From positions 1 through 36,080 of IMG/VR virus record IMGVR_UViG_3300025816_000037: a DNA stretch of 36,080 nt; one strand, given 5' to 3'. The translations under genes and the position numbers were made by a program. Below are positions 8,653 to 23,923 of the stretch, one piece after another (the stretch's first letter is position 1; each line of letters starts with the position of its first letter). The notes under the pieces were generated by a model. It made no database searches and had not been told where the DNA came from. It was given only the letters and a program-made list of their open reading frames with translations. This stretch comes from a virus.

Positions 8653-8661
8653 TTAATTACC

Positions 8662-9819
8662 TCAAGCGTTCACTAATATCTCTTTGATTGTGTAGTTAGT
8701 TGTGGTTGCAGAACTTGGGGTGGCTAACAGCCTTACGTTACCACCAGATATGTCTACATCAAATGTTGCCAATGGCTCACCAGTGTAAATTTGAGCATAC
8801 TCTGTAGCAAAAGCTGTAGTATCGTCGTGTACTATAAGGAGTTCAGATGTCTGCCTATCAGTTCCACGTTTAGCAGTGACTAGAAGTTTAGCGGAAGTGT
8901 AATCAGAGACCGCATAACTGGCTATAGCTGTCTGCGAAGTTGTAGAAGTATCAACTAATGTTTCCGCTAATCCGCCACCAGAAAAGTCTTGCGCTGTGGA
9001 CGATGAGAACACATAAGCAGAGCCACTCAAGTTAATCCTCGACCCAGAGTTACTGCTTTCGACCACTGACCGTGTAAGTGTAGCAGAACCCCCGCTTACA
9101 ACATCTACATAAACACTCAAAGTCCCAATAGTGCCACCTAAACGAGCTTCATAGAAAGTTAAGTTTTGGACACTTTGGCTCAAGGAAATCTGGGGACTTC
9201 TTAACCAGAATATGTCGTTGTTCACAACTGGAGAAGAGGATTCTGTGTAAACGTAGTAGTTTGTACCAGACGCACCAGTCGTCAAACCTGTGGATGAAGA
9301 GGGTGTACCACCCAAGTCCCTGTTCCACCTTTCTGATGTCGTGCCTGTGCCAAGACTAATAAAACTTGCGTCAGTGTAGTTAGTGTAACTGCCACTTGAG
9401 GTAGTCTGGAAGTTCTCTGTACTTGACTCAAAACTGTAAGTTGTTCCATCTACAGCAATTTGATCTAACTGAAGGTCAGCAAAGAAAGCTGTGCCACTAG
9501 CAGCAACCTGATGGCTGAAAACTAACCTTACGGTTGCTCCCGCATAAGCGGATAGGTTTACCGTTCTTTGAACCCACGAACCAGATTGACCAGAAACACT
9601 GAATAGGCTATCACTTAATCCTGTGGGCATACCTGAGATTATGCCAGTGCCTATTTCCCAATTATCTCCGTCCTCAACTACATACCTTAACTCGTCTCCA
9701 GTGACAGCACCCGCTGAGTAAAAATCTCTATAGCCTGTATCAGCAGAACCTAAAACTACTAGCTCACCAGTACCAGTCGTGCTGGTTGACACCTTGGCCC
9801 TATTTAATAACTTGACCAT
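8662..9819 (-). CDS. Virion structural protein with beta-sandwich domains
   Basis: A 385-residue, Ser/Thr/Gly-rich protein. The N-terminal 60 residues (VVLGSADTGYRDFYSAGAVTGDELRYVVEDGDNWEIGTG) form a compact domain I know from many marine phage virion proteins. The middle (residues ~75-230) looks like a MAM/concanavalin-type beta sandwich (SWVQRTVNLSAYAGATVRLVFSHQV ... DIFWLRSPQI). The C-terminus (LLVTAKRGTDRQTSELLIVHDD ... GGNVRLLATPSSATTTNYTIKEI) resembles the carboxy-terminal module of phage surface proteins. A carbohydrate- or receptor-binding role is plausible but unproven. It is 10 nt from the neighbour. Confidence 0.6.
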   Translation of the reverse strand: MVKLLNRAKVSTSTTGTGELVVLGSADTGYRDFYSAGAVTGDELRYVVEDGDNWEIGTGIISGMPTGLSDSLFSVSGQSGSWVQRTVNLSAYAGATVRLVFSHQVAASGTAFFADLQLDQIAVDGTTYSFESSTENFQTTSSGSYTNYTDASFISLGTGTTSERWNRDLGGTPSSSTGLTTGASGTNYYVYTESSSPVVNNDIFWLRSPQISLSQSVQNLTFYEARLGGTIGTLSVYVDVVSGGSATLTRSVVESSNSGSRINLSGSAYVFSSSTAQDFSGGGLAETLVDTSTTSQTAIASYAVSDYTSAKLLVTAKRGTDRQTSELLIVHDDTTAFATEYAQIYTGEPLATFDVDISGGNVRLLATPSSATTTNYTIKEILVNA

Positions 9820-9829
9820 GAGTCACCTC

Positions 9830-10201
9830 TTATGCAGGATCAGGGATACCGACAGAGAATGACCCCAGTGAAAAAGTATTACCAGATGTTACAGACTGTG
9901 AAGCTGAGAGAGTGTTAGTAGCTAACAATCGTGAGTTTGTGGTATCTACTATGGCAAAGTGTGTGGCGGAACCTGTACCTGTCACAGAACCGTCAGATAA
10001 AGCCGCTACAGTAACTTCACGACCACCGCCAGAACGATCAGCAGGTTCGCCGATAGAAAGTGTAGTAGAATTACCAAGTGTGTAGGTGGAAGTTGCCTCA
10101 GCATACGTTGTGGCTTCTTGTGAAGTAATGTGTATAGCATTTGCCTCTGTGTCTAGCACAGAAAGGCCATTGTCAAATACTCTGTCTGATAAACTTGCCA
10201 T
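9830..10201 (-). CDS. Small virion protein (beta-rich decoration type)
   Basis: A 123-residue protein: MASLSDRVFDNGLSVLDTEANAIHITSQEATTYAEATSTY, then repeated short strands with Thr/Ser (LGNSTTLSIGEPADRSGGGREVTVAALSDGSVTGTGSATHFAIVDTTNSRLLAT). This is a familiar small virion-associated family in marine siphoviruses, usually directly after the portal. It is likely a decoration protein. The gene ends 10 nt before the next one and starts 2 nt after the portal stop. No enzyme motif. Confidence 0.6.
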   Translation of the reverse strand: MASLSDRVFDNGLSVLDTEANAIHITSQEATTYAEATSTYTLGNSTTLSIGEPADRSGGGREVTVAALSDGSVTGTGSATHFAIVDTTNSRLLATNTLSASQSVTSGNTFSLGSFSVGIPDPA

Positions 10202-10203
10202 TG

Positions 10204-11541
10204 TTACTCTTCCTCTTCAACTGTAGTGGGTTGACCAACATCAGGGTCATACTCTAAGTCAGCTATGTCCATAAGGTCTTTAACAACCTCTGGGTGTGAG
10301 GATACGTCAATGTTAGCGCCATTCAAGTTACGGAGGAAAGCTGCAACCTCACGGAGATCGTGCGGAGCGACATCACCAGCTTCGATAGTTGGCATCAGGT
10401 CATAATTCAGACCGTTCAACTGCCAAAGACGCTCGACCAACTGTTTGTTGAGAACGTCAACGATTGCTTGGATGTAACTCTCAAGCGCACGGAGGAACAG
10501 GTCTGTCTTCGACTTGGAGAGAGCATAAGAACCCCCAGAGGAACCAAGCAGAAGAAACTCAGAAAGGACACTACGGGCAATGTCATGCTGGTAACGACTT
10601 ACGATTGGGTTAATGTCAATGTTGCGTTTACCATTGGATGCCATAAGCTCAATGTCAACTAATCTAGTGGAGGAAGGCGCTCCGTCTTTATCGGGGTAGG
10701 TGTCGGAAGGCAGTATAATGTAACCTTGCTCGTTGAACTTAACGTCTCGTAAGATTTGCTGCAAGTTGTGTACAAATCCTGACTGAGCAGAAGAAGCGTC
10801 CCCAGAAAGATACTCAGCGGGAATACGAGCGACAGGAATACCCGCAAGTTCTCGTTCAACCGCAATGGCCTCAATAGCCTGTAAGTTGTTAAGGTACTCG
10901 TAAGAAGTATAAGCGTTACGAAGAATACTACGTCCACTTGGATCACCATTTATTGAGGTAGTGCGGTAATACAAGGACTTATTAAGTGGGATATAGTTTC
11001 TGCTTGCCATAAGGCCAACTGACTGTTCAATACCTAGAACATCCCCAGTCTTCTGATCGACATCAAACTTGTTGATAGTCCAAGGCGCACGGGCTGCGAT
11101 CTTACGCACACCAATACGTCCATCTGTGTACTTAGAGTTTTTCTTGTCAGAACGCTCGTTAGGGCCAACACGCCGCTTGTAGATAACCTCGAACCAACCA
11201 AAGCCATACGACAGAAACGACAAGGCTTCTGCAATGTGGTCATCTAGTGTATGATCCATGTCATCAAGAACGCTCTTAACGAAGTCAGCTTCCGCTTTAG
11301 CTGCATCACTGTCGTCAACTGGAGTTACATGAAGGTCAACATCACGAAGGATTTGCTCCACAGAATACATAACAGCGCCAACGGTACTATCATTGTCACG
11401 CATCTCACGATACTTGCGTATAGCTTTCTTGCCACGCAGTTCAGGGAGAAACTCATCAGCACGGATTTGACCGTTATGTGTGTTATCGCCAGCTACGCCA
11501 AGGGTTGCCTTAGCTTTGGCCTCTGAGAGCTTCTTAACCAT
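10204..11541 (-). CDS. Portal protein
   Basis: A 445-residue protein. The N-terminal clip region has RGKKAIRKYREMRDNDSTVGAVMYSVEQILRDVDL, the wing region GFGWFEVIYKRRVGPNERS, and the stem/crown helices follow around DALESYIQAIVDVLNKQLVERLWQLN. This is the order seen in phage portal proteins (Mu gp29-like/DUF935 group). I chose the ATG at 11541 because a GTG reading (11583) would lie inside the end of the terminase gene and adds only an 14-residue tail with no homology to the family. The portal forms the dodecameric ring through which DNA enters and leaves. The C-terminus is acidic (TTVEEEE). Confidence 0.87.
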   Translation of the reverse strand: MVKKLSEAKAKATLGVAGDNTHNGQIRADEFLPELRGKKAIRKYREMRDNDSTVGAVMYSVEQILRDVDLHVTPVDDSDAAKAEADFVKSVLDDMDHTLDDHIAEALSFLSYGFGWFEVIYKRRVGPNERSDKKNSKYTDGRIGVRKIAARAPWTINKFDVDQKTGDVLGIEQSVGLMASRNYIPLNKSLYYRTTSINGDPSGRSILRNAYTSYEYLNNLQAIEAIAVERELAGIPVARIPAEYLSGDASSAQSGFVHNLQQILRDVKFNEQGYIILPSDTYPDKDGAPSSTRLVDIELMASNGKRNIDINPIVSRYQHDIARSVLSEFLLLGSSGGSYALSKSKTDLFLRALESYIQAIVDVLNKQLVERLWQLNGLNYDLMPTIEAGDVAPHDLREVAAFLRNLNGANIDVSSHPEVVKDLMDIADLEYDPDVGQPTTVEEEE

Positions 11542-11557
11542 GAGGTAGGTTCCATTA

Positions 11558-12964
11558 TTATTTCTGTGAAAGTCCCTTGGCACTTGAGTAAGCGAGGGTC
11601 AGTTTGGGTTTCGCATATCCGTTAAGTGAGAGGTCTGTAATTGCCCATACACAGGCGTCAAGTCTATCTGGGGAACCAATCGACCCTAGTGGTTCCCATG
11701 TTCTCATTTGTGTCTCTAGTTCGTTCAGCGAAGCCCCATCAGGGGGATTAGCCACATGCTTAACTAAACCACGCTCGTACAATGCCGATACAGGTTCAGC
11801 CCTAGCGAACTTACCACGGGATGCTCTAACAGCCTTATAAGGTACTGTAGGGTCTTCTCCGTGGATCGTCTGCTTAACCATGTCACCACCTTGGTTAACC
11901 TCCGCTACAATACGGTCAGCTTGGTAGTGGTGATACAGTTGAATAGCTTTAGATGCCCAACCCTGTGGTGATAACCTATCAGTATAATCACCGAGGACGT
12001 AGGCAATACCGTTAATGTCAATACCTGCGACAATAATACCCGTCATGTCACTCTCCTTATTGGCAGTGACAGCGGGATCAAGTGCAACGACAATACGGGA
12101 AAGGTCTGGGACAGCCTCATGTTTGACTGAGGCATCATCTAGCATTACGGTAGTCCACAAGGCTCCTTGAGCTTCTTCTAGGACTTCAGCGTAAAGCTCT
12201 TGTCTACCTAGTCTAGTCCCTTCGTACTGCTCTTTAACAGCAGTGAGGTATGTGTTAGCTAGGTTGGCTGAGTTATCAAAGGTACTACCCGTGGTAACGA
12301 CAGTCTTAGGGTCTTTGAGTATCTGGCGGATTAACTTAGTGGGCTTAGGGGTGGTCGTAACCATGATCCTTGGATGTTTACCCAGACGCATACAGAACTG
12401 TAGCATCTGCCAAGTGTCCATGTCCTTGTTCCAAGCAGCAGTCTCATCACACCATGCTAACTCAAACTGTGGCCCACGGAGGCGCTCAGGTTCCTCAGCG
12501 GAGAAGAACTGTACTTGCGCTCCATTCTCCCATGTTAGTGTACGCTTGGTTGGAGACCACTCAGGGAACCCCATCTTCTTACCTGCGTATGTCTTGTCAC
12601 CCTTCCAGCATACCGATAGGAAACCAGATTCACCCTTGACCATAACTCGTTCAATATCTGAGTTAGTGGAAGCTACAGCAGCTATACGCTTAACACCACG
12701 CTTAACATTATCTCGAACCCACTCAACCCCTGACCTAGTCTTACCAAATCCACGACCAGCGTTAATAAACCAAGTGTTCCAATCGTCATTCTGAGGCTCC
12801 AGTTGGTTGTCTCTAGCCCAGAACATCCAGTCATGCTTTAGCTCTTCGGTCTTGAGTGGCCCTAGTTGATCGAAGATGTCCTTAACTTTACTCTGAGGTA
12901 ATCCCCTAAGAGCATCGGCAGTTATCTTCCTCACAGGAACAGGTGGATTCTTCTTCGGGGCCAT
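11558..12964 (-). CDS. terL: Terminase large subunit (TerL)
   Basis: A 468-residue packaging motor and nuclease. Walker A is NAGRGFGKTRS (~68-78) and Walker B is FELAWCDE (~167-174), giving the ATPase. The nuclease domain starts at IVVALDPAV (Asp ~296) with further acidic residues (ESDMTGIIVAG; DACVWAI near 440). I take MAPKKNPP at 12964 as the start; an in-frame reading to 13006 lies wholly inside the small-subunit gene. It overlaps that gene by 59 nt. TerL cuts concatemeric DNA and pumps it through the portal. Confidence 0.93.
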   Translation of the reverse strand: MAPKKNPPVPVRKITADALRGLPQSKVKDIFDQLGPLKTEELKHDWMFWARDNQLEPQNDDWNTWFINAGRGFGKTRSGVEWVRDNVKRGVKRIAAVASTNSDIERVMVKGESGFLSVCWKGDKTYAGKKMGFPEWSPTKRTLTWENGAQVQFFSAEEPERLRGPQFELAWCDETAAWNKDMDTWQMLQFCMRLGKHPRIMVTTTPKPTKLIRQILKDPKTVVTTGSTFDNSANLANTYLTAVKEQYEGTRLGRQELYAEVLEEAQGALWTTVMLDDASVKHEAVPDLSRIVVALDPAVTANKESDMTGIIVAGIDINGIAYVLGDYTDRLSPQGWASKAIQLYHHYQADRIVAEVNQGGDMVKQTIHGEDPTVPYKAVRASRGKFARAEPVSALYERGLVKHVANPPDGASLNELETQMRTWEPLGSIGSPDRLDACVWAITDLSLNGYAKPKLTLAYSSAKGLSQK

Positions 12965-13334
12965 TTGTGTTATATCCAAGTAACGACATAAGTGTGTCAA
13001 CAGCACTTTCGTCTAGGTCGGGGTCAGTCTCTTGCTCAACTTCAATGTTAGTCTGAGTTGGACTCCAGCCACCCTTGGATCGTAGGAACAACTCTTGTGA
13101 TTTAAAGTCACCATCTAAGGCTTGGTCTATGACCCTCTTACCGACAGCACCATTGATCTTCGCTCGTTCCATCTCAATGAACGACCCATAGATTTTGTAC
13201 ATAGTGGATAAAGACTTTGGGGCATCCTGTAGGTGTTGCATTGAGGAAATCATCTGACGAATCCCTATGCCACCTTGGATACATTCCAAGATGTGCTTCT
13301 CTACGAGCTTACTATAAGGTAATGCTGGGATCAT
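12906..13334 (-). CDS. terS: Terminase small subunit (TerS)
   Basis: A 142-residue protein with the start at the ATG at 13334 (MIPALPYSKLVEKHILECIQGG), preceded by GGAG about 9 nt upstream. A TTG reading to 13418 adds a 28-residue hydrophobic extension that looks untranslated. The N-terminal helices (HILECIQGGIGIRQMISSM) are the helix-turn-helix DNA-binding region, the middle is the oligomerisation core, and the C-terminus is acidic and Cys-rich (ESTCSCEEDNCRCS). This Cys tail is unusual and may bind a metal. The gene immediately precedes TerL and recognises the packaging start site. It is the first gene after the late promoter motif. Confidence 0.8.
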   Translation of the reverse strand: MIPALPYSKLVEKHILECIQGGIGIRQMISSMQHLQDAPKSLSTMYKIYGSFIEMERAKINGAVGKRVIDQALDGDFKSQELFLRSKGGWSPTQTNIEVEQETDPDLDESAVDTLMSLLGYNTNGPEEESTCSCEEDNCRCS

Positions 13335-13433
13335 AACGACAGTCTCCGCCCTACGGGCTATTAACGACAAGATTAGGGGTAACTTAAGTGGGTAGTCGAT
13401 ACCACTACCTACAGTCAATCGGCAAGAACTTTG

Positions 13434-13445
13434 TAACTTAAGTTA
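13434..13445. promoter_or_regulatory. Palindrome TAACTTAAGTTA in the late leader
   Basis: A perfect 12-base palindrome lies downstream of the late promoter copy. The shorter form AACTTAAGTT recurs at 13568-13577, just beside that promoter. A candidate operator pair for a dimeric regulator. No binding protein is identified. Confidence 0.35.
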
Positions 13446-13595
13446 TACTATGATTTCATACTTCTTGGTTCAACTTGTAGGAGTGATTCTTGAGGGGAGT
13501 AACTATAGTTATGACTTACGTTATATAGCTTAGTAGTATAAATCGTAGTGATAATAATTTACGTTAAAACTTAAGTTACTCTCTCTCTCATTATA

Positions 13596-13625
13596 CTATA
13601 GGGATACAAATTCGAATCTTAGACA
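13596..13625 (-). promoter_or_regulatory. Phage promoter copy P1 (late operon)
   Basis: On the minus strand it reads TGTCTAAG, 10 nt, GTATCCCTATAG, then TATAAT-like. This is the same bipartite motif, with the same 10-nt gap, as the copies at 20885 and 25796. It points at the terminase operon. TGTCTA to CTATAG are 18 nt apart, as for a -35/-10 pair. The likely reader is the phage sigma factor encoded at 20296-20874. That link is inference. Confidence 0.72.
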
Positions 13626-13884
13626 CTTTATTTTTACTTTTTGTCAACTATTTTACAATCATTTGTTTTACAACGAAAGTATTTTCTCTTTTTTTGTCGT
13701 GTTTTCGTGAGTATTATTACCGTTTTCTAACAATTCGTGATAACGTAAGCGGATTACCGCCGATATGTACCTTGGTGGGTACTCCAGATATAACGCCCGT
13801 TTGAACGTGGTGGGTGGGCTTATGGTAGGGTCAAAAGTAATTTTTGGTTTTGGATTCAGGTGGTGTTAAGGGGGCCACAAAAAT

Positions 13885-14027
13885 GATTCGCCCATGATGT
13901 CAAGGGTCCCAAGCGAAAGTTTACCAAATGTTACAAAAACGTGCAAAACTGTAACAAAACGTGAGTAAACAAAAGAAAAACTTGACAAAGGATAAGCGAT
14001 TCGCCCACATCCCGCAAGTGATTCGCC
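13885..14027. repeat. GATTCGCC repeat cluster (operator candidates)
   Basis: GATTCGCC occurs at 13885-13892, 13998-14005 and 14020-14027, with a related GATTCAA at 14044. A fourth exact copy is on the far side of the accessory cassette at 16104. The core is a near-palindrome (GCGATTCGC). The 13998 copy would lie in the spacer of a weak minus-strand promoter (TTGCGG-17-TATCCT). Chance alone would give far less than one copy in this space. Confidence 0.45.
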
Positions 14028-14056
14028 AGTTTCAAACTAGCGTGATTCAAGTGTTA

Positions 14057-14071
14057 TGTTATAGTATAACA
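14057..14071. promoter_or_regulatory. 15-base palindrome (operator candidate)
   Basis: TGTTATA-G-TATAACA is a perfect inverted repeat around one central base, placed between the cassette terminator and the GATTCGCC cluster. A dimeric repressor site is possible. No further evidence. Confidence 0.3.
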
Positions 14072-14096
14072 GTTAATAACCGCATGACATAACGAC

Positions 14097-14122
14097 AAAA
14101 AGGCCAGCACTAAGGCCAGCCT
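14097..14122 (-). terminator. Rho-independent terminator of the accessory cassette
   Basis: In the minus-strand transcript an 8-bp stem (AGGCTGGC with GCTGGCCT, two G-U pairs) closes a 6-nt loop and is followed by a run of five T (including the T that ends the stem), then G. It lies 33 nt past the last cassette gene. The wobble pairs mean it folds well only in the minus-strand RNA. Confidence 0.6.
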
Positions 14123-14154
14123 AATTGTGTCTTAATTGTGTCCGAAATAGGGCG

Positions 14155-14307
14155 TTAGAATGTCACGGGTTCAATCTCGAATTGATAACGTGAATCGTGC
14201 CGCCGCTCTAATACCGCTAGTTTGTCGAGTGCCTCGGCCTTGCTGCGCGTAGCATGATAGCAAAAGCGCTTGCCGCCCGTTAGAATATAGACTCTCCATT
14301 CCATCAT
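14155..14307 (-). CDS. Small basic protein, last gene of the accessory cassette
   Basis: A 50-residue protein from the ATG at 14307 (MMEWRVYILTGGKRFCYHATRSKAEALDKL), overlapping the upstream stop as ATGA. A longer reading to 14367 lies inside the upstream gene and is unlikely. It has a strand-strand-helix look (WRVYILTGGKRFCYHATRSKAEALDKLAVLERRH) that could be a small nucleic-acid- or protein-binding module. Unknown family. Confidence 0.55.
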   Translation of the reverse strand: MMEWRVYILTGGKRFCYHATRSKAEALDKLAVLERRHDSRYQFEIEPVTF

Positions 14308-14534
14308 ATAAATCCCGCCAATACGAAGGCGCTTTTCATCGACCGCGTATTGCAGCACTCGCACCAACCGTTGGTTATATCCGGCTCATAATCGGTTGTA
14401 TAATCGCAACCGGGATTCATACATATCGCCGGGACGCTATCCACTAGCCCTATAGATTCAAACATATCCATTGGACTAGCATGGCCCTCATATTCTGCTA
14501 ACAGATTCAATTTGTCGCTACTCATGTTATTCAT
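14304..14534 (-). CDS. Small zinc-ribbon-like protein
   Basis: A 76-residue protein. DKLNLLAEYEGHASPMDMFESIG is followed by AICMNPGCDYTTDYEPD and NGWCECCNTRSMKSAFVLAGF. The four or five Cys in CMNPGC and WCECC suggest a zinc-ribbon. I know similar short proteins from bacteriophages and proteobacterial prophages, usually as anonymous accessory genes. It overlaps the genes on both sides by 4-8 nt, so it is translated as part of the cassette operon. Confidence 0.6.
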   Translation of the reverse strand: MNNMSSDKLNLLAEYEGHASPMDMFESIGLVDSVPAICMNPGCDYTTDYEPDITNGWCECCNTRSMKSAFVLAGFI

Positions 14535-14745
14535 CTCCCCAATACTTAAAATTACCCTCTGACTCGTTATCGTGAAAGCCCGTGTAATACTCTCTTACTT
14601 GTGCCGTTGTCATGTCAGCATATAAGACGGGAAAGCCCTTGTAAGTACCTTCGGGCCAGTAATGCGGCGCATATGGGCGGCCATAGTATGAATCCGCCGC
14701 GCCTCTATCATATGGGCTACCATGTTTTCTTGTGTCGCTATTCAT
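14527..14745 (-). CDS. Small SPYDRGxADxYYGR-family protein
   Basis: A 72-residue protein with the recognisable signature HGSPYDRGAADSYYGRPYAPHYWPEGTYKG at the N-terminus, then MTTAQVREYYTGFHDNESEGNFKYWG. This family is widespread in phages and in proteobacterial accessory DNA, but I know no experimental function. It starts as ATGA on the stop of the upstream gene. Confidence 0.65.
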   Translation of the reverse strand: MNSDTRKHGSPYDRGAADSYYGRPYAPHYWPEGTYKGFPVLYADMTTAQVREYYTGFHDNESEGNFKYWGDE

Positions 14746-15545
14746 TGCACCAGCTCCCGTACCACAAAACCGCTGGAATCCGCCTTGGCTTCACCTTTGG
14801 CCTTAAGCCCTACAACAACGCCCGGTCTATCCATAAACCTAACGTCAGATTCATCGCCGTTTATCACCGGGATTCCCTTATATGTCGCGGGTAATACCTT
14901 CTCAAAAACCACGGCAACATTGCCGCCCGACTCTAGTACCTTATCGACGCAAGAGTCGTTAATTTCCGATTTACTAAAAGTAATATGATAATTACTAGGC
15001 AATGCGCCCTTTACCCATTGTAAGGCCTTTTTAGTGACCTTTGTGTAATCGTAGGCCTCTATCCCGTCAAAGTAATGAATCAAGCTCGCATAGGGCTTGC
15101 CGTTAACCGTTAGCGCAACCGATTGGAAAGGATAATCGCTTGTTGTATTAGGCCGCCATGCGGGAACCATGTTAAGCGCCTTAGCCTTTCTTTCATGCGA
15201 TTCAAGCTCAAACGCCATTAAAGCGATATACGCCTTGCGCATTGTCATGAAAGCGTGAGTCCGTTGAATTCTTGCCGATAATTTGGCGCGTAAATATATC
15301 GGATTCCCGGCGGTATTTAGGCAAGCGATAAGGCAACCGGGACTCGCGCTTGAGCATAGATTCCATTTACCCGACTCCTTACCCGGTGCGAGATTATGCG
15401 GTTTTGATAAGACTCCGAGTTTAGCGCCTTTGGCTAGTTTGGGATTGGATTCCGTTGCGCCTAAGGCGGTTGAAAAGGTAAAGCCCTTAGCGCGTAGTGC
15501 GCGGATTACTTGGGCGCGGGATGTATAGCCATTGTAATTTGTCAT
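14742..15545 (-). CDS. Cysteine-motif accessory protein (gp88/DUF7227-like)
   Basis: A 267-residue protein. The feature that identifies it is KWNLCSSASPGCLIACLNTAGNP (~residues 61-83), like the CPGAS..GC...C motif of phage gp88/DUF7227-type proteins, followed by RAKLSARIQRTHAFM. The C-terminal half is alpha/beta (SLIHYFDGIEAYDY..., VAVVFEKVLPATYKGIPVINGDESDVRFMD). Function unknown; a metal-bound or redox-active cysteine site is plausible. It is the largest gene of the cassette. The family is found in mobile accessory modules, as I recall. Confidence 0.6.
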   Translation of the reverse strand: MTNYNGYTSRAQVIRALRAKGFTFSTALGATESNPKLAKGAKLGVLSKPHNLAPGKESGKWNLCSSASPGCLIACLNTAGNPIYLRAKLSARIQRTHAFMTMRKAYIALMAFELESHERKAKALNMVPAWRPNTTSDYPFQSVALTVNGKPYASLIHYFDGIEAYDYTKVTKKALQWVKGALPSNYHITFSKSEINDSCVDKVLESGGNVAVVFEKVLPATYKGIPVINGDESDVRFMDRPGVVVGLKAKGEAKADSSGFVVRELVQ

Positions 15546-15808
15546 TATTGAGTCCTCCCAAAATCAATCCAATATGACACAAGGCCGGGAATCTCAAATA
15601 AGAGACCGTCAAAATATAGCGTTGAAAAGTAACCTACGCAAAAGCACAAGAATCCGAAATATAAAAGGCCAGTTAGCTTGGCAAGAATAACGGCGAGTCT
15701 TTCCATGAATGTCGCGGTTTTATTAACGCCCTTGCGTTTACGGGTATAGACTCGCGCGATTACTTGATCCTCAAGCCCTTTGATTATGTTTTGATCTAAT
15801 TGTGTCAT
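15545..15808 (-). CDS. Small membrane protein
   Basis: An 87-residue protein. Basic N-terminal half (RVYTRKRKGVNKTATFMERLAVILAKL), then one strongly hydrophobic segment (residues ~50-65, LLYFGFLCFCVGYFSTLYF), then a short polar tail. A single-pass inner-membrane protein by composition. It shares TAATGA with both neighbours and so is coupled in the cassette operon. No family recognised. Confidence 0.55.
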   Translation of the reverse strand: MTQLDQNIIKGLEDQVIARVYTRKRKGVNKTATFMERLAVILAKLTGLLYFGFLCFCVGYFSTLYFDGLLFEIPGLVSYWIDFGRTQ

Positions 15809-16047
15809 TATGAACGTCCCCCAAATATTTTGGCAGATTTACATTTACCCATGGATTTTGCGATTGATTCCATAGGAAAATGACCTTGCATATCCATTGC
15901 CGCCGCAAATGTTTTATAATCTGCACGGTTTACTTTAACCGTAATTCTTGAGCCAGTCGCGGGAAAAATAAAATCAACAAAATATTTGCCGCTTTCCGTT
16001 TCACTAACGGAGTCAATGTGAAACTGGTTTTTATATTCATGTAACAT
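15808..16047 (-). CDS. First gene of the accessory cassette, hypothetical
   Basis: A 79-residue protein (MLHEYKNQFHIDSVSETESGKYFVDFIFPATGSRITVKVNRADYKTFAAAMDMQGHFPMESIAKSM). Strand-strand-helix pattern; unknown family. The start is preceded by GGAAC. It is the first gene after the sigma70-like promoter at 16128-16156, so it probably has the longest leader in the cassette. Confidence 0.6.
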   Translation of the reverse strand: MLHEYKNQFHIDSVSETESGKYFVDFIFPATGSRITVKVNRADYKTFAAAMDMQGHFPMESIAKSMGKCKSAKIFGGRS

Positions 16048-16103
16048 TGTGTTGGTTCCTTTTATCGGAATTGAAGCGTCATTGCTTAGGAACCATTAAA
16101 GGC

Positions 16104-16111
16104 GATTCGCC
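16104..16111. promoter_or_regulatory. GATTCGCC operator candidate at the cassette promoter
   Basis: Fourth exact copy of the octamer found three times on the other side of the cassette. Its near-palindromic context (GGCGATTCGCC) sits about 15-20 nt after the -10 box, a position where a bound repressor would block transcription. Confidence 0.45.
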
Positions 16112-16127
16112 GGGTATTGCAAGCCCT

Positions 16128-16156
16128 ATTATATAGAGAAGGCATTTTTATGTCGC
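16128..16156 (-). promoter_or_regulatory. Sigma70-like promoter of the accessory cassette
   Basis: GCGACA, 17 nt, TATAAT on the minus strand: a perfect -10 with a -35 matching 4 of 6 positions. It lies ~80 nt upstream of the first cassette gene. The GGCGATTCGCC near-palindrome (16101-16111) overlaps the expected transcription start, which suggests repressor control. Confidence 0.6.
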
Positions 16157-16225
16157 ATTTAAGGGATTGACTCGCATAGAGCGCGGGGAATCAATTTTAT
16201 GGGTTGGAGTGACCGGGAATCCTTT

Positions 16226-16258
16226 CGGGCTTAAAACGGGCTTAAATCGGGTTTCAGG
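16226..16258. repeat. Three 11-base tandem repeats in the cassette leader
   Basis: CGGGCTTAAAA, CGGGCTTAAAT and CGGGTTTCAGG in direct tandem at 16226, 16237 and 16248. Between the two promoter candidates. Period 11 is close to one helical turn; a protein-binding site is possible. Confidence 0.4.
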
Positions 16259-16317
16259 CCCTATGGACTCCCATAACGAATCGCGCTAAATAATGGGGGA
16301 TGCCGAATCAAAACTTA

Positions 16318-16346
16318 GTTATGCGTTTTGTGCATACCTATGTCAA
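16318..16346 (-). promoter_or_regulatory. Possible second sigma70-like promoter
   Basis: TTGACA, 17 nt, CATAAC on the minus strand. Perfect -35, -10 matches 4 of 6. It would give a ~270-nt leader before the first cassette gene. Weaker case than the 16128-16156 promoter. Confidence 0.35.
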
Positions 16347-16440
16347 TTTTTGCATAGCTTATTGGCCGAGAACGAATCATAAACAAAAAACTTAGGTAAA
16401 TATGAAAGAGTCAATAGTATATTTCAGCTTGACAGATTCG

Positions 16441-16488
16441 TTGTAAAAATGCCACGTTGCAAGAATGTCACGTTGTAAAAATACCACA
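16441..16488 (+). repeat. Three 16-base direct repeats
   Basis: Units start at 16441, 16457 and 16473: TTGTAAAAATGCCACG, TTGCAAGAATGTCACG, TTGTAAAAATACCACA. Exactly contiguous. This is the first of four tandem arrays placed end to end before the early operon; together they are the best origin candidate of the window. Confidence 0.65.
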
Positions 16489-16495
16489 CCCGATT

Positions 16496-16598
16496 GTATA
16501 CCAAAGTATACGCAAGTATACCATCGTATACCATCGTATACGTTAATCGCATACTGTCGCATACCATCGTATACCATCGCATACTATCGTATACGGTC
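16496..16598. repeat. Ten GTATAC/GCATAC units with 10-base period (iteron-like)
   Basis: Hexamers begin at 16496, 16506, 16516, 16526 and 16536, then after a 13-base step at 16549, 16559, 16569, 16579 and 16589. GTATAC is itself a palindrome. Two blocks of five at one helical turn each would put all sites on one face of the DNA. Typical of iteron or operator arrays. Confidence 0.75.
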
Positions 16599-16600
16599 TT

Positions 16601-16680
16601 ATATAAGTATATCCATATATAAGCATATAAACATATACAAATATTCGAATATAAGCATGTGTTTATATAAGCGATCACTC
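16601..16680 (+). repeat. Five 16-base AT-rich repeats (ATATAAGC type)
   Basis: Units begin at 16601, 16617, 16633 (degenerate), 16649 and 16665, each opening with ATATAAG(C/T) or ATATACAA. Strongly AT-rich. Directly beside the iteron-like array, which is the arrangement of a DNA unwinding element at a replication origin. Confidence 0.65.
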
Positions 16681-16684
16681 ATGT

Positions 16685-16810
16685 ACCCCCTCCAGTGGAA
16701 AATGACCCCCACAGTGGAAAATGAGAGTCACCCCATCAGTGGAAATAATTCTGTTGACCCCACCAGTGGAAAATGCGAGAGTGATTCTATAAGTTGACCC
16801 CCACCGTGGG
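16685..16810 (+). repeat. Five CCCC-nn-CAGTGGAAAATG repeats before the early operon
   Basis: Copies of CAGTGGA are at 16693, 16712, 16737 and 16764 with a degenerate one near 16804 (CCGTGGGAA), each preceded by CCCC. The spacing is irregular (19, 25, 27, ~41). The fourth copy sits where a -35 box would be for a TATAAG hexamer at 16788-16793. The first early gene starts at 16828, so an activator or operator array of the early promoter is likely. Confidence 0.55.
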
Positions 16811-16827
16811 AATTAAGGAGAAATACA

Positions 16828-17118
16828 ATGGAAAATATCTTAGCAGAACTTAAGGCAATCATGCAGGACGCACAGGAAGCGTCAGCCCGTGCAGGGGAAT
16901 ATAAGAACGACATTGATCGTGGTATCAACGTCAACCACACGCCAGAATATGATACGTCTGTCACCAAGCAGGACAAGATCAACAGCCTATTCGAGTATCT
17001 AATAGATGCTAAGGATGACATGGATCGTGTGAAAGATAGCCTGAAAGACATCCACGATAAACTTGACGACCTCCTTGAGTTAGTAGAGTATGAGAATATA
17101 GCAAAGGGGATTCGCTGA
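16828..17118 (+). CDS. First early protein, helical, unknown
   Basis: A 96-residue, strongly helical and acidic protein. Residues ~50-90 (NSLFEYLIDAKDDMDRVKDSLKDIHDKLDDLLELVEYE) look like a coiled coil. AAGGAG precedes the ATG. First gene downstream of the composite repeat region, thus probably the first phage protein made. Early small proteins often take over host functions; nothing here shows which. Its stop shares a base with the next start (TGATG). Confidence 0.7.
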   Translation: MENILAELKAIMQDAQEASARAGEYKNDIDRGINVNHTPEYDTSVTKQDKINSLFEYLIDAKDDMDRVKDSLKDIHDKLDDLLELVEYENIAKGIR

Positions 17119-17276
17119 TGGAAATTCGTGAGACATACTATGAACTATACCTTGATGGAACTTTATACCACGAGGGAACATTAAAAGATTGTACAGAATA
17201 TGCACAACGCGCTCTTGACGATGATTGTGCTGAGGTGTACAAGGTAACTGTAACAGAAGAAAAGGTAGTAATCTAA
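17118..17276 (+). CDS. Small acidic protein
   Basis: A 52-residue protein (MEIRETYYELYLDGTLYHEG...). Strands near residues 1-17 and 40-50, acidic in between (DDDCAEVYKV). It overlaps the preceding and following genes by one base each, so it belongs to one translated unit. No family recognised. Confidence 0.62.
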   Translation: MEIRETYYELYLDGTLYHEGTLKDCTEYAQRALDDDCAEVYKVTVTEEKVVI

Positions 17277-17566
17277 TGGGAAAAGTAAACGCACTATTTC
17301 AAGACGCAGAAGAGCAAGCGTTTGATCGTTACACTAACATCTTGGTCGATGCTGATGTTGAGATGATGTTTCACTGTGGTGAGATTGAGAAGTTCCGCAT
17401 CTGTAATATCCCTTGTGTTTGGGTCTGGGACGAAAGCTCAAGGGAAGCAGCAGAATACTGGGCTGCATTGGATCACATCAGTGAGAACTATACCTTCGAT
17501 TGGATGTCGGTTAAATCTTGGTCGGGTTCACCAGTTAAGGTTGACACACCTGAGCGAATCAATTAG
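17276..17566 (+). CDS. Hypothetical early protein
   Basis: A 96-residue acidic protein with several Trp (VWVWDESSREAAEYWAALDH, FDWMSVKSWSG). Start overlaps the previous stop (TAATG). No recognised family. Codon use matches its neighbours. Confidence 0.62.
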   Translation: MGKVNALFQDAEEQAFDRYTNILVDADVEMMFHCGEIEKFRICNIPCVWVWDESSREAAEYWAALDHISENYTFDWMSVKSWSGSPVKVDTPERIN

Positions 17567-17594
17567 AACCGTAAGTGGAAATAAGGAGAACCAC

Positions 17595-17750
17595 ATGAAC
17601 CAATTCGCACTAGCAACTGAGGTCAATGGTATCGTAATGCGACTTGCGTTACCCACCATGACAAAGCTACAGGCTGAACAGAAGGCCAAGGTACTACGGG
17701 AGCTATCTCCCAAGACACCAATATATGTCGTTAACAAAACAGCGGAGTAA
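17595..17750 (+). CDS. Small hypothetical protein
   Basis: A 51-residue protein from the ATG at 17595 (MNQFALATEVNGIVMRLALP), preceded by AAGGAGAACCAC. The same frame is open far upstream but the ribosome binding site fixes this start. The short form MTKLQAEQKAKVLRELSPKTPIYV is helical then extended. No family recognised. Confidence 0.62.
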   Translation: MNQFALATEVNGIVMRLALPTMTKLQAEQKAKVLRELSPKTPIYVVNKTAE

Positions 17751-17755
17751 TTGAT

Positions 17756-18064
17756 ATGACACTAGATACACGCATGGTAAGCATGGTACTGGCAGAGAAC
17801 GCTAACGAGTTCATCACCGTTAAGTTCCTGACCAAAGATAACGAGGAGCGTACATACAATGGTCGCTTGAACGTCAAGAAATACCTTGTGGGTGGTGAAC
17901 GTGGTCGTAAGGCTGCTGACGTTCTAAAGGCTCACAACCTGATCCCCATGTTCGTGGGTAAGGATGGTGAGAAGCCCAAGTACAAGAGCTTCTGTCTTGA
18001 CCGTGTGCTGGCTATGAAGGCTGGCGGTCGTCACATCTTTGCTATGGGCAGTGAGATCGAATGA
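17756..18064 (+). CDS. SH3-like beta-barrel protein
   Basis: A 102-residue protein. FITVKFLTKDNEERTYNGRLNVKKYLVGG, then HNLIPMFVGKDGEKPKYKSFCLDRVLAMKAGG. The pattern of a short strand, KDG.ER, RLNVKK, then YKSF.LDRVL.IKA is what I recognise from phage proteins with an SH3-like barrel. Role unknown; such proteins may bind a protein partner. Its stop overlaps the next start as ATGA. Confidence 0.55.
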   Translation: MTLDTRMVSMVLAENANEFITVKFLTKDNEERTYNGRLNVKKYLVGGERGRKAADVLKAHNLIPMFVGKDGEKPKYKSFCLDRVLAMKAGGRHIFAMGSEIE

Positions 18065-18456
18065 CACCCCTTTTGTGTCTTGCAGCAGCGGTCTTCTTTG
18101 AGAGCCGTAGTGAACCTCTGGAAGGACAGAGGGCCGTTGCTGAGGTCGTTATGACTAGGGTAGAATCACCCCGTTGGCCCGACGAAATCTGTGCCGTTGT
18201 CTTCCAACACAAGCAGTTCTCGTTCACCCACGATGGAAAATCTGATAACTATCACAAGTACAATGGCAATGTATTCGACAGACAAGCGATTGATATAGCT
18301 GAGACAATAGCTAAGTCAGTGCTAAAAGGTGATCGTATTGGCTTGACTTCTACCCACTATCATACTATCTCAGTATCACCATATTGGGCCAAAAGTTACC
18401 ACCGAGATGGTCGCATTGGCACACACGTTTTTTACACAGCACCCGAAGGGAAATGA
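18061..18456 (+). CDS. Cell wall hydrolase (SleB-like)
   Basis: A 131-residue protein. Residues 7-30 (LAAAVFFESRSEPLEGQRAVAEVVMTRV) hold the catalytic Glu (~14) and the conserved E.EGQ.AVA.V..NR motif of the Hydrolase_2 (SleB/CwlJ) family; the C-terminal part (SPYWAKSYHRDGRIGTHVFYT) is the typical W....GTH.FY ending. The family cleaves peptidoglycan. It sits in the early region, far from the holin, and no signal peptide is obvious. Either it is a second endolysin or it works on the wall during entry or early infection. Overlaps the previous gene as ATGA. Confidence 0.8.
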   Translation: MTPLLCLAAAVFFESRSEPLEGQRAVAEVVMTRVESPRWPDEICAVVFQHKQFSFTHDGKSDNYHKYNGNVFDRQAIDIAETIAKSVLKGDRIGLTSTHYHTISVSPYWAKSYHRDGRIGTHVFYTAPEGK

Positions 18457-18458
18457 GA

Positions 18459-18617
18459 ATGTTTAACATGACACTTGAGAAACACTTGGAAGAGATGGGT
18501 ATCCGTCCCAAGTCAATCATCCGTGAGCTAGAGGAACTCCTTGATCCACGTCTGACGTATCTGGCGAAGGGTTACTTCAATGACCCCCGCAGTAGAAATG
18601 GAGAGGTGCCGTTCTAA
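18459..18617 (+). CDS. Small acidic helical protein
   Basis: A 52-residue protein from the ATG at 18459 (MFNMTLEKHLEEMGIRPKSI). An ATG at 18453 overlaps the hydrolase stop; I prefer 18459 because AAGGG lies about 8 nt before it. Two helices, EELLDPRLTYLAKG, then a flexible tail. Unknown family. Confidence 0.6.
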   Translation: MFNMTLEKHLEEMGIRPKSIIRELEELLDPRLTYLAKGYFNDPRSRNGEVPF

Positions 18618-18796
18618 TGAATACGATCTTTATACTAATATGGTTTGTCGTTATTCCTGAGACTGGCGTAAGGTATTACCACTTGGGAACGTATGATAAT
18701 GAAACCATGTGCGGGACTGCACTGAGGGATGCTTCGGTTATGGTCAATGATAAACAAGAGACAATCGAATGTATAGGAGTACAGGTAGATGATTAA
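18617..18796 (+). CDS. Small protein with hydrophobic N-terminus
   Basis: A 59-residue protein. Residues 1-13 (NTIFILIWFVVIP) are hydrophobic, then a polar domain with two Cys (GTYDNETMCGTALRDASVMVNDKQETIECIG). Possibly a small secreted or membrane-tethered protein. Starts on the previous stop (TAATG) and overlaps the ThyX start by 8 nt. Confidence 0.58.
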   Translation: MNTIFILIWFVVIPETGVRYYHLGTYDNETMCGTALRDASVMVNDKQETIECIGVQVDD

Positions 18797-19442
18797 AGCA
18801 TTTTACGTTCAACACGCTGGCTCTGACCTTATGGTCGTAAACAGTGCTAGGGTATCATTTGGTAAGCGTAGTGAGATGGAGGATGATCTTTGGGGGCCAC
18901 CTAAGCTAAAGGAGAAGGACGCTAAGTTGATCCGATACCTTGCCAAGCATAACCACATCAGCCCCTTTAACCACACATGGGTTACGTTCCAATGTCGTGC
19001 GCCTATGTTTGTAGCACGGCAACTCCAGAAACACGAGTATATGCCTTGGAATGAAATATCTAGGCGCTACACAACTGAAAATATTCAGTTTTATGAGCCA
19101 GAGGTGTGGCGGGGTAAATCTGAGGACAAGAAGCAAGGGTCTGATGGTGTCGTTAACATTCAGTTAGACCAAGAGGTACAGTGGCACAGACAGTTCCAGA
19201 CGTATCAGACGCTAATTGACGAGGGTGTAAGCCCAGAGATGGCTCGTATGGTACTACCCCAGAGTATGTACACTGAGTGGTTCTGGAGCGGAACGGTAGG
19301 GGCCATAGCGAAGATGTGTAACCTACGCTGTAAGCCTGATACACAGGCGGAGACACGCATTGTAGCTGACCAGATCAGTGAGAAGATGAAAGAGTTGTTC
19401 CCAGTTTCTTGGGCAGCATTATTGGAGGAGAAAGACCAATGA
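18789..19442 (+). CDS. thyX: Flavin-dependent thymidylate synthase
   Basis: A 217-residue protein. The signature is RQLQKHEYMPWNEISRRY (~77-94), which is the phage form of the ThyX RHRxxS motif (R-Q..KH..x..NE.SRRY). It makes dTMP from dUMP using FAD, NADPH and methylenetetrahydrofolate. With the class II RNR and MazG further down, it forms the phage's nucleotide supply. Starts within the end of the preceding small gene. Confidence 0.92.
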   Translation: MIKAFYVQHAGSDLMVVNSARVSFGKRSEMEDDLWGPPKLKEKDAKLIRYLAKHNHISPFNHTWVTFQCRAPMFVARQLQKHEYMPWNEISRRYTTENIQFYEPEVWRGKSEDKKQGSDGVVNIQLDQEVQWHRQFQTYQTLIDEGVSPEMARMVLPQSMYTEWFWSGTVGAIAKMCNLRCKPDTQAETRIVADQISEKMKELFPVSWAALLEEKDQ

Positions 19443-19672
19443 AACCTGACGTTACGCAAAAACAACAAGTACTTAACCACTTACAAAATAACCCTGATGG
19501 GTTCACCTCTTGGGAAGCAATCAGTCAATATGGTATTACCCGTTTAGCTGCTTATATTGGTTTCTTGAGGAATGATGGATATGGTATTAACTCGGTAACA
19601 GAAACCCGTAACGGAAAGGCAATTGCCAGATACTTCTTGGTTACAGGTGAAGAGGAGAATGGTGATGGCTAA
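19439..19672 (+). CDS. Winged helix-turn-helix protein
   Basis: A 77-residue protein from the ATG at 19439 ([47 protein letters not shown]), overlapping the ThyX stop as [40 protein letters not shown] is a helix-turn-helix followed by a wing (ARYFLVT). A DNA-binding regulator or accessory protein of the early region is the natural reading; the target is unknown. Confidence 0.7.
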
Positions 19673-19877
19673 ACTGTATGACTTAGAGCCAATGATAATG
19701 GACTGTTGGCACGTCTGTGATGACCTACAGGTTGTCTTTAGGCAGATCGGTGACGGTGAACGTGAGCCTACGCACGATGAAATGATGAACACCTTGATGG
19801 GTATGCAACAGCTATACGAGTGGAAGTTTGAGCAGTTGTTCTTCAAGTATGAGGAGGTATTCCGTGATAAACAGTGA
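19665..19877 (+). CDS. Small helical protein ([11 protein letters not shown] family)
   Basis: A 70-residue protein from the ATG at 19665, with GAGGAG about 7 nt before it. [25 protein letters not shown] ... [23 protein letters not shown] is a small all-helical protein that I have seen in many phages without an assigned function. It overlaps the previous gene by 8 nt. Confidence 0.62.
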
Positions 19878-19923
19878 GTGGCGAAAGTTGATAGCAGAAC
19901 AAGAGAACTTTAAGGAGAACGTA

Positions 19924-20175
19924 ATGGCAGAGCATACAGCAGACATCGTGAATGAACCTAAGCACTACGCACGGTGGAAGATCGAACCTATCACATACAT
20001 TATGATGAATGGCTTTGAGTTCTGGCGTGGGAATATCATCAAGTATGCCAGTCGTGCAGGGTACAAGCCCTACGAGGGAATGAGTAAGGCTCAGTGCGAG
20101 ATCACAGACCTTGAGAAGGTCATCCGCTATGCACAAATGCGTATCAATCAACTGGAGGGTAAGGACAAGCTATGA
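19924..20175 (+). CDS. DUF3310-like protein
   Basis: An 83-residue protein from the ATG at 19924, which has a perfect AAGGAG at the right spacing. Core NEPKHYARWKIEPITYIMMNGFEFWRGNIIKYASRAG is the DUF3310 pattern (P.HY....EPI..I........F..GN.IKY..R.G.K). The family is common in phages and named nucleotide kinase in some annotations without proof. A GTG at 19864 in the same frame also has a GAGGAG site, giving a 20-residue longer form; see findings. Confidence 0.75.
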   Translation: MAEHTADIVNEPKHYARWKIEPITYIMMNGFEFWRGNIIKYASRAGYKPYEGMSKAQCEITDLEKVIRYAQMRINQLEGKDKL

Positions 20176-20315
20176 CTAGAGAAGAGCTAAAGAAAATCAT
20201 AAAGGCTTTGGATAAGTCTGAGGATGTCACAGTCGAGGAAGCTGTGTATCTGATCCGAAAGAGACAGCGGGAGTTAGAAAACTTGGAGGTAGAGTATGAG
20301 CTTAACTGGGCCTGA
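20172..20315 (+). CDS. Small charged helical protein
   Basis: A 47-residue protein (MTREELKKIIKALDKSEDVTVEEAVYLIRKRQRELENLE). Starts as ATGA on the DUF3310 stop and runs 20 nt into the sigma-factor gene, so it may be translationally coupled to it. No family recognised. Confidence 0.58.
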   Translation: MTREELKKIIKALDKSEDVTVEEAVYLIRKRQRELENLEVEYELNWA

Positions 20316-20874
20316 GATCGTAGGTATGTGCGAGAAGTTAGCCAACAGGTTTAACTCTCCCTCACACCGTGATGACATGGTACAAGAGGGTGTACTAAAG
20401 TGTTACGAGATATTGGCTGACGATGAGAAGGTACATCCAGCGCACCTCTACAGGGAGGCTAAGAGGCGTATGCACGATTACCTTAACCTTGATGTGCTAC
20501 CTGTTACAGTACCAGCGCACAATATTTCCCGTAGGCTCACACACGACATAGACGACAGTGAGGTGGGTAATATGTCTGAGGTTGGTCATAAGTGGCTAAA
20601 GTCTGTTTTGTCGTCTAACTCTGGTCAATACAGTGATGAACACAATGGCTCAGAGAAAGATCATACTGAAAGATATGAGAATAAGGAGTTCGTAAGATAT
20701 GTCATAAATGTGGCGATAGAAGAATTAACGGCAGAAGAATGGAGTGTTCTTAAGTTACGTTATTACAGCGACATGACACAACATGAGGTGGCGGATATGT
20801 TAGACAAACACCAGAAGTGGGTGTCACGAAGGGAGGACACTGCCTTAACTAAGTTACGAAAGTCAGTTCTGTAA
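20296..20874 (+). CDS. Phage RNA polymerase sigma factor
   Basis: A 192-residue protein with the two-domain form of small sigma factors. Region 2 is near residues 26-41 (DDMVQEGVLKCYEILA), where core RNA polymerase and the -10 box bind. Region 4 is at ~144-190 (LTAEEWSVLKLRYYSDMTQHEVADMLDKHQKWVSRREDTALTKLRKS), a helix-turn-helix that reads the -35 box. The gene ends 10 nt before a copy of the bipartite promoter motif, and is the last gene of the first early block. It is the natural factor for the three promoter copies. Confidence 0.85.
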   Translation: MSLTGPEIVGMCEKLANRFNSPSHRDDMVQEGVLKCYEILADDEKVHPAHLYREAKRRMHDYLNLDVLPVTVPAHNISRRLTHDIDDSEVGNMSEVGHKWLKSVLSSNSGQYSDEHNGSEKDHTERYENKEFVRYVINVAIEELTAEEWSVLKLRYYSDMTQHEVADMLDKHQKWVSRREDTALTKLRKSVL

Positions 20875-20884
20875 CAATTCGTGA

Positions 20885-20914
20885 TGTCTAAGAATTAAAA
20901 AAGTATCCCTATAG
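20885..20914 (+). promoter_or_regulatory. Phage promoter copy P2 (replication block)
   Basis: TGTCTAAG, 10 nt, GTATCCCTATAG, just downstream of the sigma-factor gene and 76 nt upstream of the next ATG (20991). Same spacing as the copies at 13596 (minus) and 25796 (plus). It would start transcription of the primase-helicase and polymerase block. Confidence 0.75.
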
Positions 20915-20990
20915 GTAAGTGTAGGGTTTACATAAGTTATGACTTTAGTTACTTCTACTATTAGTTATAACATAAGAAAGGAACGTAAGT

Positions 20991-21782
20991 ATGGACGATG
21001 ATGACTACTACGACATGGTGATGAGTAAATCTTCTGATGTCGTTATGCACTCTTGGGAAGATTGCATACATGGCTTCAAGCAAGCCGATGTTGACATGGG
21101 CAGTGCTTTCCACAGAAAGTTGGAATGGATGAACAAAGCGGCTGATATTTACCTATCAGATAACAGTAAGATGGCAGGGTTTGTCGGTAAGTTTTCTAAG
21201 GATTGTGGTATATCTAAGGACTACGCTTACAAAATTAATAGGGCAAGAAAATTGCAGTGGACTGCAAAAAACTTTAGTCATGATGCTGTAGAGGCACTTT
21301 TGTCAGCCCCAGAGGAATTGCGTGATGAGATTGTGTCGTTAGATAAACCCGTAACTGTTGCAGAAGTACAGCAAGCTAAGGCAGGGTACAAAGAGGTACA
21401 AGAGAACCCTGACTACGGTGACATACTTGAAGACGTTAAAGAGAAACGAAAGACCCCTGTAGAGGCTGCTAGGGAGGCTTGGGATCGTTCAGAAGAGAAA
21501 CGAAGGGAGATGGAGAATAATCCGAATGTGTTTGACTTAAATGCTCACGTCAAAAGTACAGAGCATTGCACCGTAGATGTATCAGCAACTAACCTTGTTG
21601 TAGCTATGGAACAGTTAATCAGTAAGTTTGATAGGCGTGACGTTATGATGTACCTATACTCAGCTATACATGATGATGTCGTAAATATCAAAATACCGGC
21701 ACTACATGAGATGTCCGACATCTTGATAGAGCTATGTGAACAGTTGCCACTCGAAGGCACAAACAAACAAAACTTAAGCTAG
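20991..21782 (+). CDS. Hypothetical protein, first gene after promoter P2
   Basis: A 263-residue protein. The first 20 residues are very acidic (MDDDDYYDMVM). Residues ~65-90 (KFSKDCGISKDYAYKINRARKLQW) look like a helix-turn-helix, the middle is charged and helical (YGDILEDVKEKRKTPVEAAREAWDRSEEKRREME), and a C-terminal domain (VAMEQLISKFDRRDVMMYLYSAI) follows. No family recognised. The HTH-like segment and its first position after the sigma-type promoter suggest a DNA-binding or regulatory role, perhaps at the iteron-like array. This is inference only. Confidence 0.6.
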   Translation: MDDDDYYDMVMSKSSDVVMHSWEDCIHGFKQADVDMGSAFHRKLEWMNKAADIYLSDNSKMAGFVGKFSKDCGISKDYAYKINRARKLQWTAKNFSHDAVEALLSAPEELRDEIVSLDKPVTVAEVQQAKAGYKEVQENPDYGDILEDVKEKRKTPVEAAREAWDRSEEKRREMENNPNVFDLNAHVKSTEHCTVDVSATNLVVAMEQLISKFDRRDVMMYLYSAIHDDVVNIKIPALHEMSDILIELCEQLPLEGTNKQNLS

Positions 21783-21793
21783 GAGACCCGACA

Positions 21794-22141
21794 ATGAGCT
21801 ATTACCAACAGACACTCGACTTATTTGAACTCAATGATCGTAAGCCAATGGGAGTTAACTTACTTATCCGTCAGGGTGCAAGGAACATTCGTGCGTCAGA
21901 TGCTAACGTGGTCAGAGCGCACGTTTGGAAGCACCAACGTGATGACATGGAAGCACTGCTTAACACTACGTTTCATTCTTACGAGCTTGACCGTCAGATG
22001 ACTATGCGCTGGCTTCTTGACAATGAGGCTGACGTTTTCTTTGGTCAGAGGGATGCGGAGATAGAAAAGGGCCAAGGTCGTGTAAAGATGAACCACCTGT
22101 ACAAAGAAGTAGGGTACAAGTATCTGATAGGTTCTAAGTAA
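21794..22141 (+). CDS. Hypothetical protein in replication block
   Basis: A 115-residue protein: MSYYQQTLDLFELNDRKPMGVNLLIRQGARNIRASDANVVRAHVWKHQRDDMEALLN. Mostly helical, with TMRWLLDNEADVFFGQRDAEIEKGQGRVKMN. GGAGACCCGACA precedes the ATG. No family recognised. Its place before primase-helicase suggests a replication accessory role. Confidence 0.6.
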   Translation: MSYYQQTLDLFELNDRKPMGVNLLIRQGARNIRASDANVVRAHVWKHQRDDMEALLNTTFHSYELDRQMTMRWLLDNEADVFFGQRDAEIEKGQGRVKMNHLYKEVGYKYLIGSK

Positions 22142-22159
22142 AACAAAGGAGAGTAACCA

Positions 22160-22327: not shown

Positions 22328-22345
22328 ACCCAAGGAGAGAGCCAC

Positions 22346-23920: not shown

Positions 23921-23923
23921 AAT

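Follow-up and report, generated by a model that had tools for sequence, protein, structure and literature searches.

A conserved GANTC-rich island beside the terminase genes of CRP-6-like phages, a possible control region for host CcrM and GcrA

The IMG/VR virus record IMGVR_UViG_3300025816_000037 (positions 1 to 36,080; "the window" hereafter means this whole stretch of 36,080 bases) comes from a relative of Roseobacter phage CRP-6, with which it shares genes for structure, packaging and replication as well as their order. It contains one island of GANTC, the word methylated by CcrM in nearly all alphaproteobacteria (PMC11514494), in a genome otherwise depleted of it. The island keeps its position among related marine phages, is enriched and conserved above null expectation whatever genes it holds, and bears the GANTC form TGATTCG at both edges. 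We consider it likely that this conserved and selected island is a control region on which host CcrM and GcrA act at the edge promoters. A more specific reading, which we hold tentatively, is that the genome combines a methylation-blind core with one methylation-addressable island, and that CcrM and GcrA set when, or on which copies, the cassette and packaging genes are expressed. This would be an epigenetic switch of the virus operated by the host's own machinery, a claim for which our confidence is short of even.

Exact counting gave 77 GANTC sites in the window. Between positions 13861 and 16440 there were 42, where 6.9 were expected from dinucleotide composition, and the other 33.5 kb held 35 for an expectation of 133; the by-eye counts of the original prediction (42 and about 30-35) were thus accurate. 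The dense run extends over 13853-16439, at 14.8 sites per kb in coding and 21.6 per kb in non-coding DNA, in all three codon phases and with all four bases occurring at the central position. The six minus-strand open reading frames (ORFs) ascribed to this cassette are present, as are a terminator-like hairpin and repeats on both sides of the unit (CAGTGGAAA iterons, a TATGC..GCATA dyad and a GGGACCC block), and its k-mer make-up differs from that of the core. The sigma-70 promoter proposed at 16156-16128 fared less well: although it is a 10/12 match, the region holds no more promoter-like sites than chance predicts (10 vs 10.4 expected), and this putative promoter is kept in close relatives only.

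CRP-6, which infects a Rhodobacteraceae strain of the RCA lineage (PMC6918029), carries the cassette in the corresponding position; its last 2.5 kb hold 38 GANTC, vs 31 in the other 42 kb. IMG/VR relatives, which are metagenomic and, like the window record, mostly fragments, keep the peak (up to 28 per kb) with GP88, a cassette protein, down to 53-57% identity. Further contigs were retrieved with the conserved leader 17-mer; many are without a close GP88, and the peak is present there too. We thus rejected the idea that the island is a property of GP88. Every sufficiently long contig shows the order early genes, island, gene before terL, terL, so that the island is bordered by the rightward early genes on one side and by the packaging genes on the other. 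When the island was defined by terminase position alone, as the 3 kb preceding the terminase genes in 27 dissimilar representatives, the islands contained 909 GANTC for 205 expected (4.4-fold, with observed/expected ratios, O/E, of 1.9-6.5 each), whereas the remainder of the same contigs, the cores, contained 161 for 588 expected. Across 58 dereplicated loci the density was 5.6-24 per kb (median 12.6), against a downstream median of 0.95 per kb, and in each of the near-complete contigs G007-G009 (40-45 kb) a single main peak lies at the promoter block. The main gene slot is occupied by GP88, a divergent GP88, DUF7178 or unrelated proteins, while GANTC richness is constant. As the island genes are exchangeable, the richness belongs to the place and not to the genes. 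The content of this accessory slot was also followed in six loci (L114, L128, L113, L119, L115 and L116), where GP88, DUF7178 and two families without Pfam match replace one another.

Selection for GANTC itself in the island was shown by several approaches. A survey of all words of 2 + 2 bases with a gap of 0-6 bases in the 27 islands placed GANTC first, enriched in 27/27, with z 49 (next word, 18.7); related loci were treated as independent in this and all other z and Fisher values, and since they are related, the p values overstate independence. Synonymous-codon shuffling within the window's GP88 gene lowered GANTC from 14 to 6.2, and none of 500 shuffles reached 14. Such an excess was found in most but not all relatives (none in L011 and L023, weak in L009 and L022). 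Related islands share more sites than a random-substitution null predicts in most pairs, for example 39 vs 29 for L019/L021 and 27 vs 20 for the window and L005. Few individual sites are conserved group-wide; therefore the density persists although most site positions change. The sites showed no helical phasing; the value at period 8 was z -2.6.

The strongest 7-mer at island sites was TGATTCG (118 vs 33 expected, among 908 sites). Flanks taken over all sites are weak, and TGATTCG is the one strong extension. In the two edge zones, 24% and 27% of the sites have this form, compared with 2% in the middle (Fisher p 1e-19 to 1e-21), where codon constraints may contribute to the low share. Two conserved elements carry it. 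The left element, with consensus TATGC-N-GCATA-N-GTTTTGATTCGGCATCCCCCATT in 15 aligned loci, reads in the window TTGACA (16346-16341), 17 bp, CATAAC (16323-16318), 7 bp, TGATTCG (16310-16304), followed by GCATCCCCC, and overlaps the dyad near 16320-16338. The packaging-side element has the consensus TTGACA...GGGACCC...TATTATACG...TGATTCG in nearly all islands, and in relatives it forms a full promoter, TTGACA-N17-TATTAT-N7-TGATTCG. Among relatives, TGATTCG stands directly after the -10 in both elements, and with good hexamers GANTC begins 8-9 bases past it. The packaging-side pattern occurred in 54 IMG/VR contigs, of which 53 have genes of this phage group. Loci found with patterns that include TGATTCG are ascertained for that word, and the 54 of the 58 loci that have the block include such loci; the GP88-bearing loci, almost all of which were retrieved by protein only, carry it without exception.

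At least 120 matches to the generic pattern TTGACA-N16-18-TATNAT-N6-8-TGATTCG were obtained, vs 32 for a scrambled word. Many fall in other phages with ordinary GANTC density. Outside the group, TTGACA-N17-TATNAT-N6-8-TGATTCG occurs in L222, L277, L180, L232 and others, with several copies identical between contigs; promoters of the GcrA type may be wider among phages.

Open complex formation at methylated promoters is stimulated by GcrA, which binds both methylated GANTC and region 2 of sigma-70 (PMC7403470, PMC3667746); TGATTCG, or YGAKTCK, was proposed as its activating form in Caulobacter (PMC7987155). A putative sigma-70 promoter with GANTC in this form, as expected of GcrA/CcrM control, is what we found at the island edges. 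A search of 8 phage records yielded no gene for GcrA or an N6_N4_Mtase; therefore host CcrM and GcrA are probably the readers of the island. The phage concentrates the CcrM word in a 2.5-3 kb region of control elements and accessory genes and removes it elsewhere. In the model that we propose, host CcrM would methylate the island, and GcrA, as a sigma-70 cofactor, would act at two TGATTCG-bearing promoters, one for the leftward cassette and one before the terminase genes. The dense middle sites may draw both proteins to the island, and the site-free core may keep them off. Methylation state, which could distinguish incoming methylated from newly copied unmethylated genomes or reflect the stage of the host cell cycle, would then time transcription of the cassette and of the packaging genes.

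In Caulobacter and other alphaproteobacteria, GcrA/CcrM promoters likewise combine a sigma-70 type promoter with GANTC as TGATTCG. They differ in having one or few sites, whereas the phage site lies just after the -10, within 2.5-3 kb of GANTC-saturated DNA; in host genomes the word is under-represented overall, with an intergenic enrichment of only about 1.5-fold (PMC3973325). Several points weigh against control by CcrM and GcrA. Caulobacter promoters activated at 40-60 min have GANTC between the -35 and the -10 (PMC4287350), which is not its place here, and the extended GcrA motif was not found in a Brevundimonas study (PMC7987155). The packaging-side -35 and -10 are weak in the window's own clade, strong hexamers being found in a subset of relatives. 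Also, promoter action alone needs no GANTC throughout the coding part. Finally, we infer methylation of the island, binding of GcrA and likewise transcription as the output from sequence patterns. The original prediction had proposed that GANTC methylation marks the cassette; our data are consistent with this and strengthen it through the promoter TGATTCG sites. Overall, its interpretation was partly supported.

The main rival explanation, which we judge unlikely but by no means negligible, is that the island mainly controls replication or packaging and holds the phage origin or pac site, where CcrM methylation or hemimethylation gates origin firing or terminase cutting. The island indeed ends just before the terminase genes and at the divergence of the two gene arms, where iterons adjoin it. 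Dam/GATC clusters occur at E. coli oriC and at phage P1 pac, near replication and packaging genes. They resemble the island as clusters of a methylase word in a control region, but the island uses the CcrM word, is much longer and lies in a genome otherwise purged of it. In alphaproteobacterial chromosomes GANTC increases near the origin (PMC9836097). The repABC loci are also control regions of mobile replicons with excess CcrM sites; their function is methylation-dependent, and ori2 requires methylatable sites for its activity (PMC11514494). However, nine sites are described at repABC-Ch2/ori2, whereas the phage island has about 40, adjoins the terminase and has no repABC genes. No origin or pac site was identified, and the island is mostly protein-coding and far larger than P1 pac; its sites are not helically phased, and site-specific conservation is strongest at promoter-like elements.

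The uniform density over coding and non-coding DNA and the turnover of most positions would also suit a sponge, in which multicopy GANTC sites titrate CcrM or GcrA, upsetting the cell cycle of the host, while sites in the core would disturb phage transcription. We regard this as improbable: a sponge needs neither a fixed genomic place nor TGATTCG at promoter edges, and a single island gives only about 40 sites per genome. Slightly less probable still is a methylation-independent reading of GANTC by some other phage or host DNA-binding protein, for instance a structural or terminase protein. The footprint elements do hold further conserved bases (GGGACCC and GGCATCCCCC), but the use of all four central bases and the weak flanks over all sites fit a CcrM-type word, and the sole strong extension equals the published GcrA form.

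Relaxed restriction avoidance alone, in which the island is merely exempt from purging and has an ordinary GANTC frequency, bears on other words as well. CCGG, CGCG and CCNGG occur 1, 3 and 4 times in the window core (1-13860 and 16441-36080; 33.5 kb) and 11, 15 and 10 times in the cassette, and the CRP-6 core has a similar scarcity. Unlike that of GANTC, this contrast between core and island is not kept in relatives, being absent or patchy in G007-G009. In the pool the three words are less depleted in islands (O/E 0.44-0.69) than in cores (0.05-0.21), as relaxed avoidance would have it, but they are never enriched. Their scarcity in the core suggests clade-specific restriction-site avoidance. 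Because they are merely less depleted in islands whereas GANTC is enriched, two effects are superimposed: sites are avoided in the core in the ordinary way, and GANTC is positively enriched in the island. As the whole story for GANTC, relaxed avoidance was rejected and is very improbable, since the enrichment is above 1, far above that of every other tested word, and kept by selection. The weakest alternative is the recent arrival from a different source that the original prediction proposed from the GANTC contrast; the unlike k-mer make-up would speak for it. The prediction took presence at the same site with the same composition in all relatives as the sign of an old element. CRP-6 and every adequate relative do have the island at the same site with the same GANTC richness, down to 53-57% GP88 identity or with unrelated island genes, so a recent arrival is refuted and has next to no probability left.

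Depletion of GANTC in the core (pooled O/E 0.27), as originally predicted, is common to unrelated alphaproteobacterial phages without an island. It was published for about half of pelagiphages (PMC9516812). In the other alphaproteobacterial phages checked, GANTC O/E ranged from 0.04 to 0.73, and none of the eight examined for an island (pelagiphages, Lo5R7ANS, TRX32-1 and cobaviruses) had one; these phages thus resemble the present group in the depleted core and differ in lacking the island. To our knowledge, CcrM has no partner nuclease, hence the reason why many alphaproteobacterial phages avoid its word is puzzling. Mesorhizobium phage Lo5R7ANS (L040) has 9 GANTC in 45.7 kb vs 249 expected, and 4 of the 9 lie in one kilobase overlapping annotated restriction endonuclease and DNA methyltransferase genes. 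That one region is about 4-fold enriched in a word avoided everywhere else shows that GANTC serves the virus positively at this place, which restriction alone would hardly account for. The virus may use the island to read host DNA-methylation signals, CcrM methylation timing the host cell cycle. With CRP-6 as cultured representative, this is a compact system in which to test whether DNA methylation allows phages to sense the cell cycle of their host. We found no published report of a GANTC island or cluster in a phage, in a literature search without most subscription papers.

Table 1. Positions of the island, its elements and adjoining genes in the window.
Feature	Position	Strand	Remarks
Terminase large subunit	11558..13006	-	
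Putative small terminase, left anchor of island	12906..13334	-	By position only; directly upstream of and overlapping terL
GANTC island	13853..16440	.	43 sites, coding and non-coding; place kept in 58 dereplicated loci
Packaging-side element	13880..13925	-	GGGACCC (13910-13904), then CGAATCA (13890-13884)
Terminator-like hairpin, 3' of cassette genes	14101..14122	-	
Cassette ORF, 70 aa	14155..14367	-	Conserved in close relatives
Cassette ORF, 76 aa	14304..14534	-	Zinc-ribbon-like cysteine pattern by eye; conserved in many relatives
Cassette ORF, 72 aa	14527..14745	-	No family
GP88-family protein (PF17338), 267 aa	14742..15545	-	Pfam; CRP-6 gp68 homologue
Cassette ORF, 87 aa, possible membrane protein	15545..15808	-	No family; hydrophobic stretch judged by eye
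First cassette ORF, 79 aa	15808..16047	-	No family
Left promoter/leader element	16304..16346	-	Alignment of 15 loci; promoter function inferred
Four direct repeats CAGTGGAAA, between island and early genes	16693..16772	+	Similar repeats in several relatives
First conserved rightward early gene (EG1), right anchor of island	16828..17118	+	

The positions are collected in Table 1. GP88 was the one clear family assignment in the cassette (138 bits vs a Pfam cut-off of 24.4); the other five ORFs gave no clear family. Its structure model (predicted local distance difference test, pLDDT, 88) showed weak but consistent matches to radical S-adenosylmethionine (SAM) enzymes, with Z 4.3-5.8 (spore photoproduct lyase, viperin, RlmN). 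The best was VIA (Z 5.8), the top 24 rows were nearly all radical SAM enzymes, and Foldseek returned no match with E < 0.001. With these matches and the three invariant cysteines C64, C71 and C75, GP88 may be a radical-SAM-like Fe-S protein. Outside phages, GP88 was found in bacterial genomes in one distant contig of a metagenome-assembled genome, and a search for a plasmid source of the cassette gave one weak plasmid match, to GP88. A single weak PADLOC match to defence families (E 0.009) among the cassette genes was disregarded. The intergenic region contains no transfer RNA, and its only Rfam match, a sub-threshold Thr_leader, was discarded. The putative small terminase, listed as an ORF at 12906-13418 with a conserved start MIP at 13334, had no Pfam match.

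The CAGTGGAAA repeats are possible operators or origin iterons. Short repeats of the TATACCATCG type also run beside the island, at 16495-16600 in the window. Further to the right, the phage gene at 20296-20874 encodes a sigma-70 region 4 domain and has homologues in other phages with the island.

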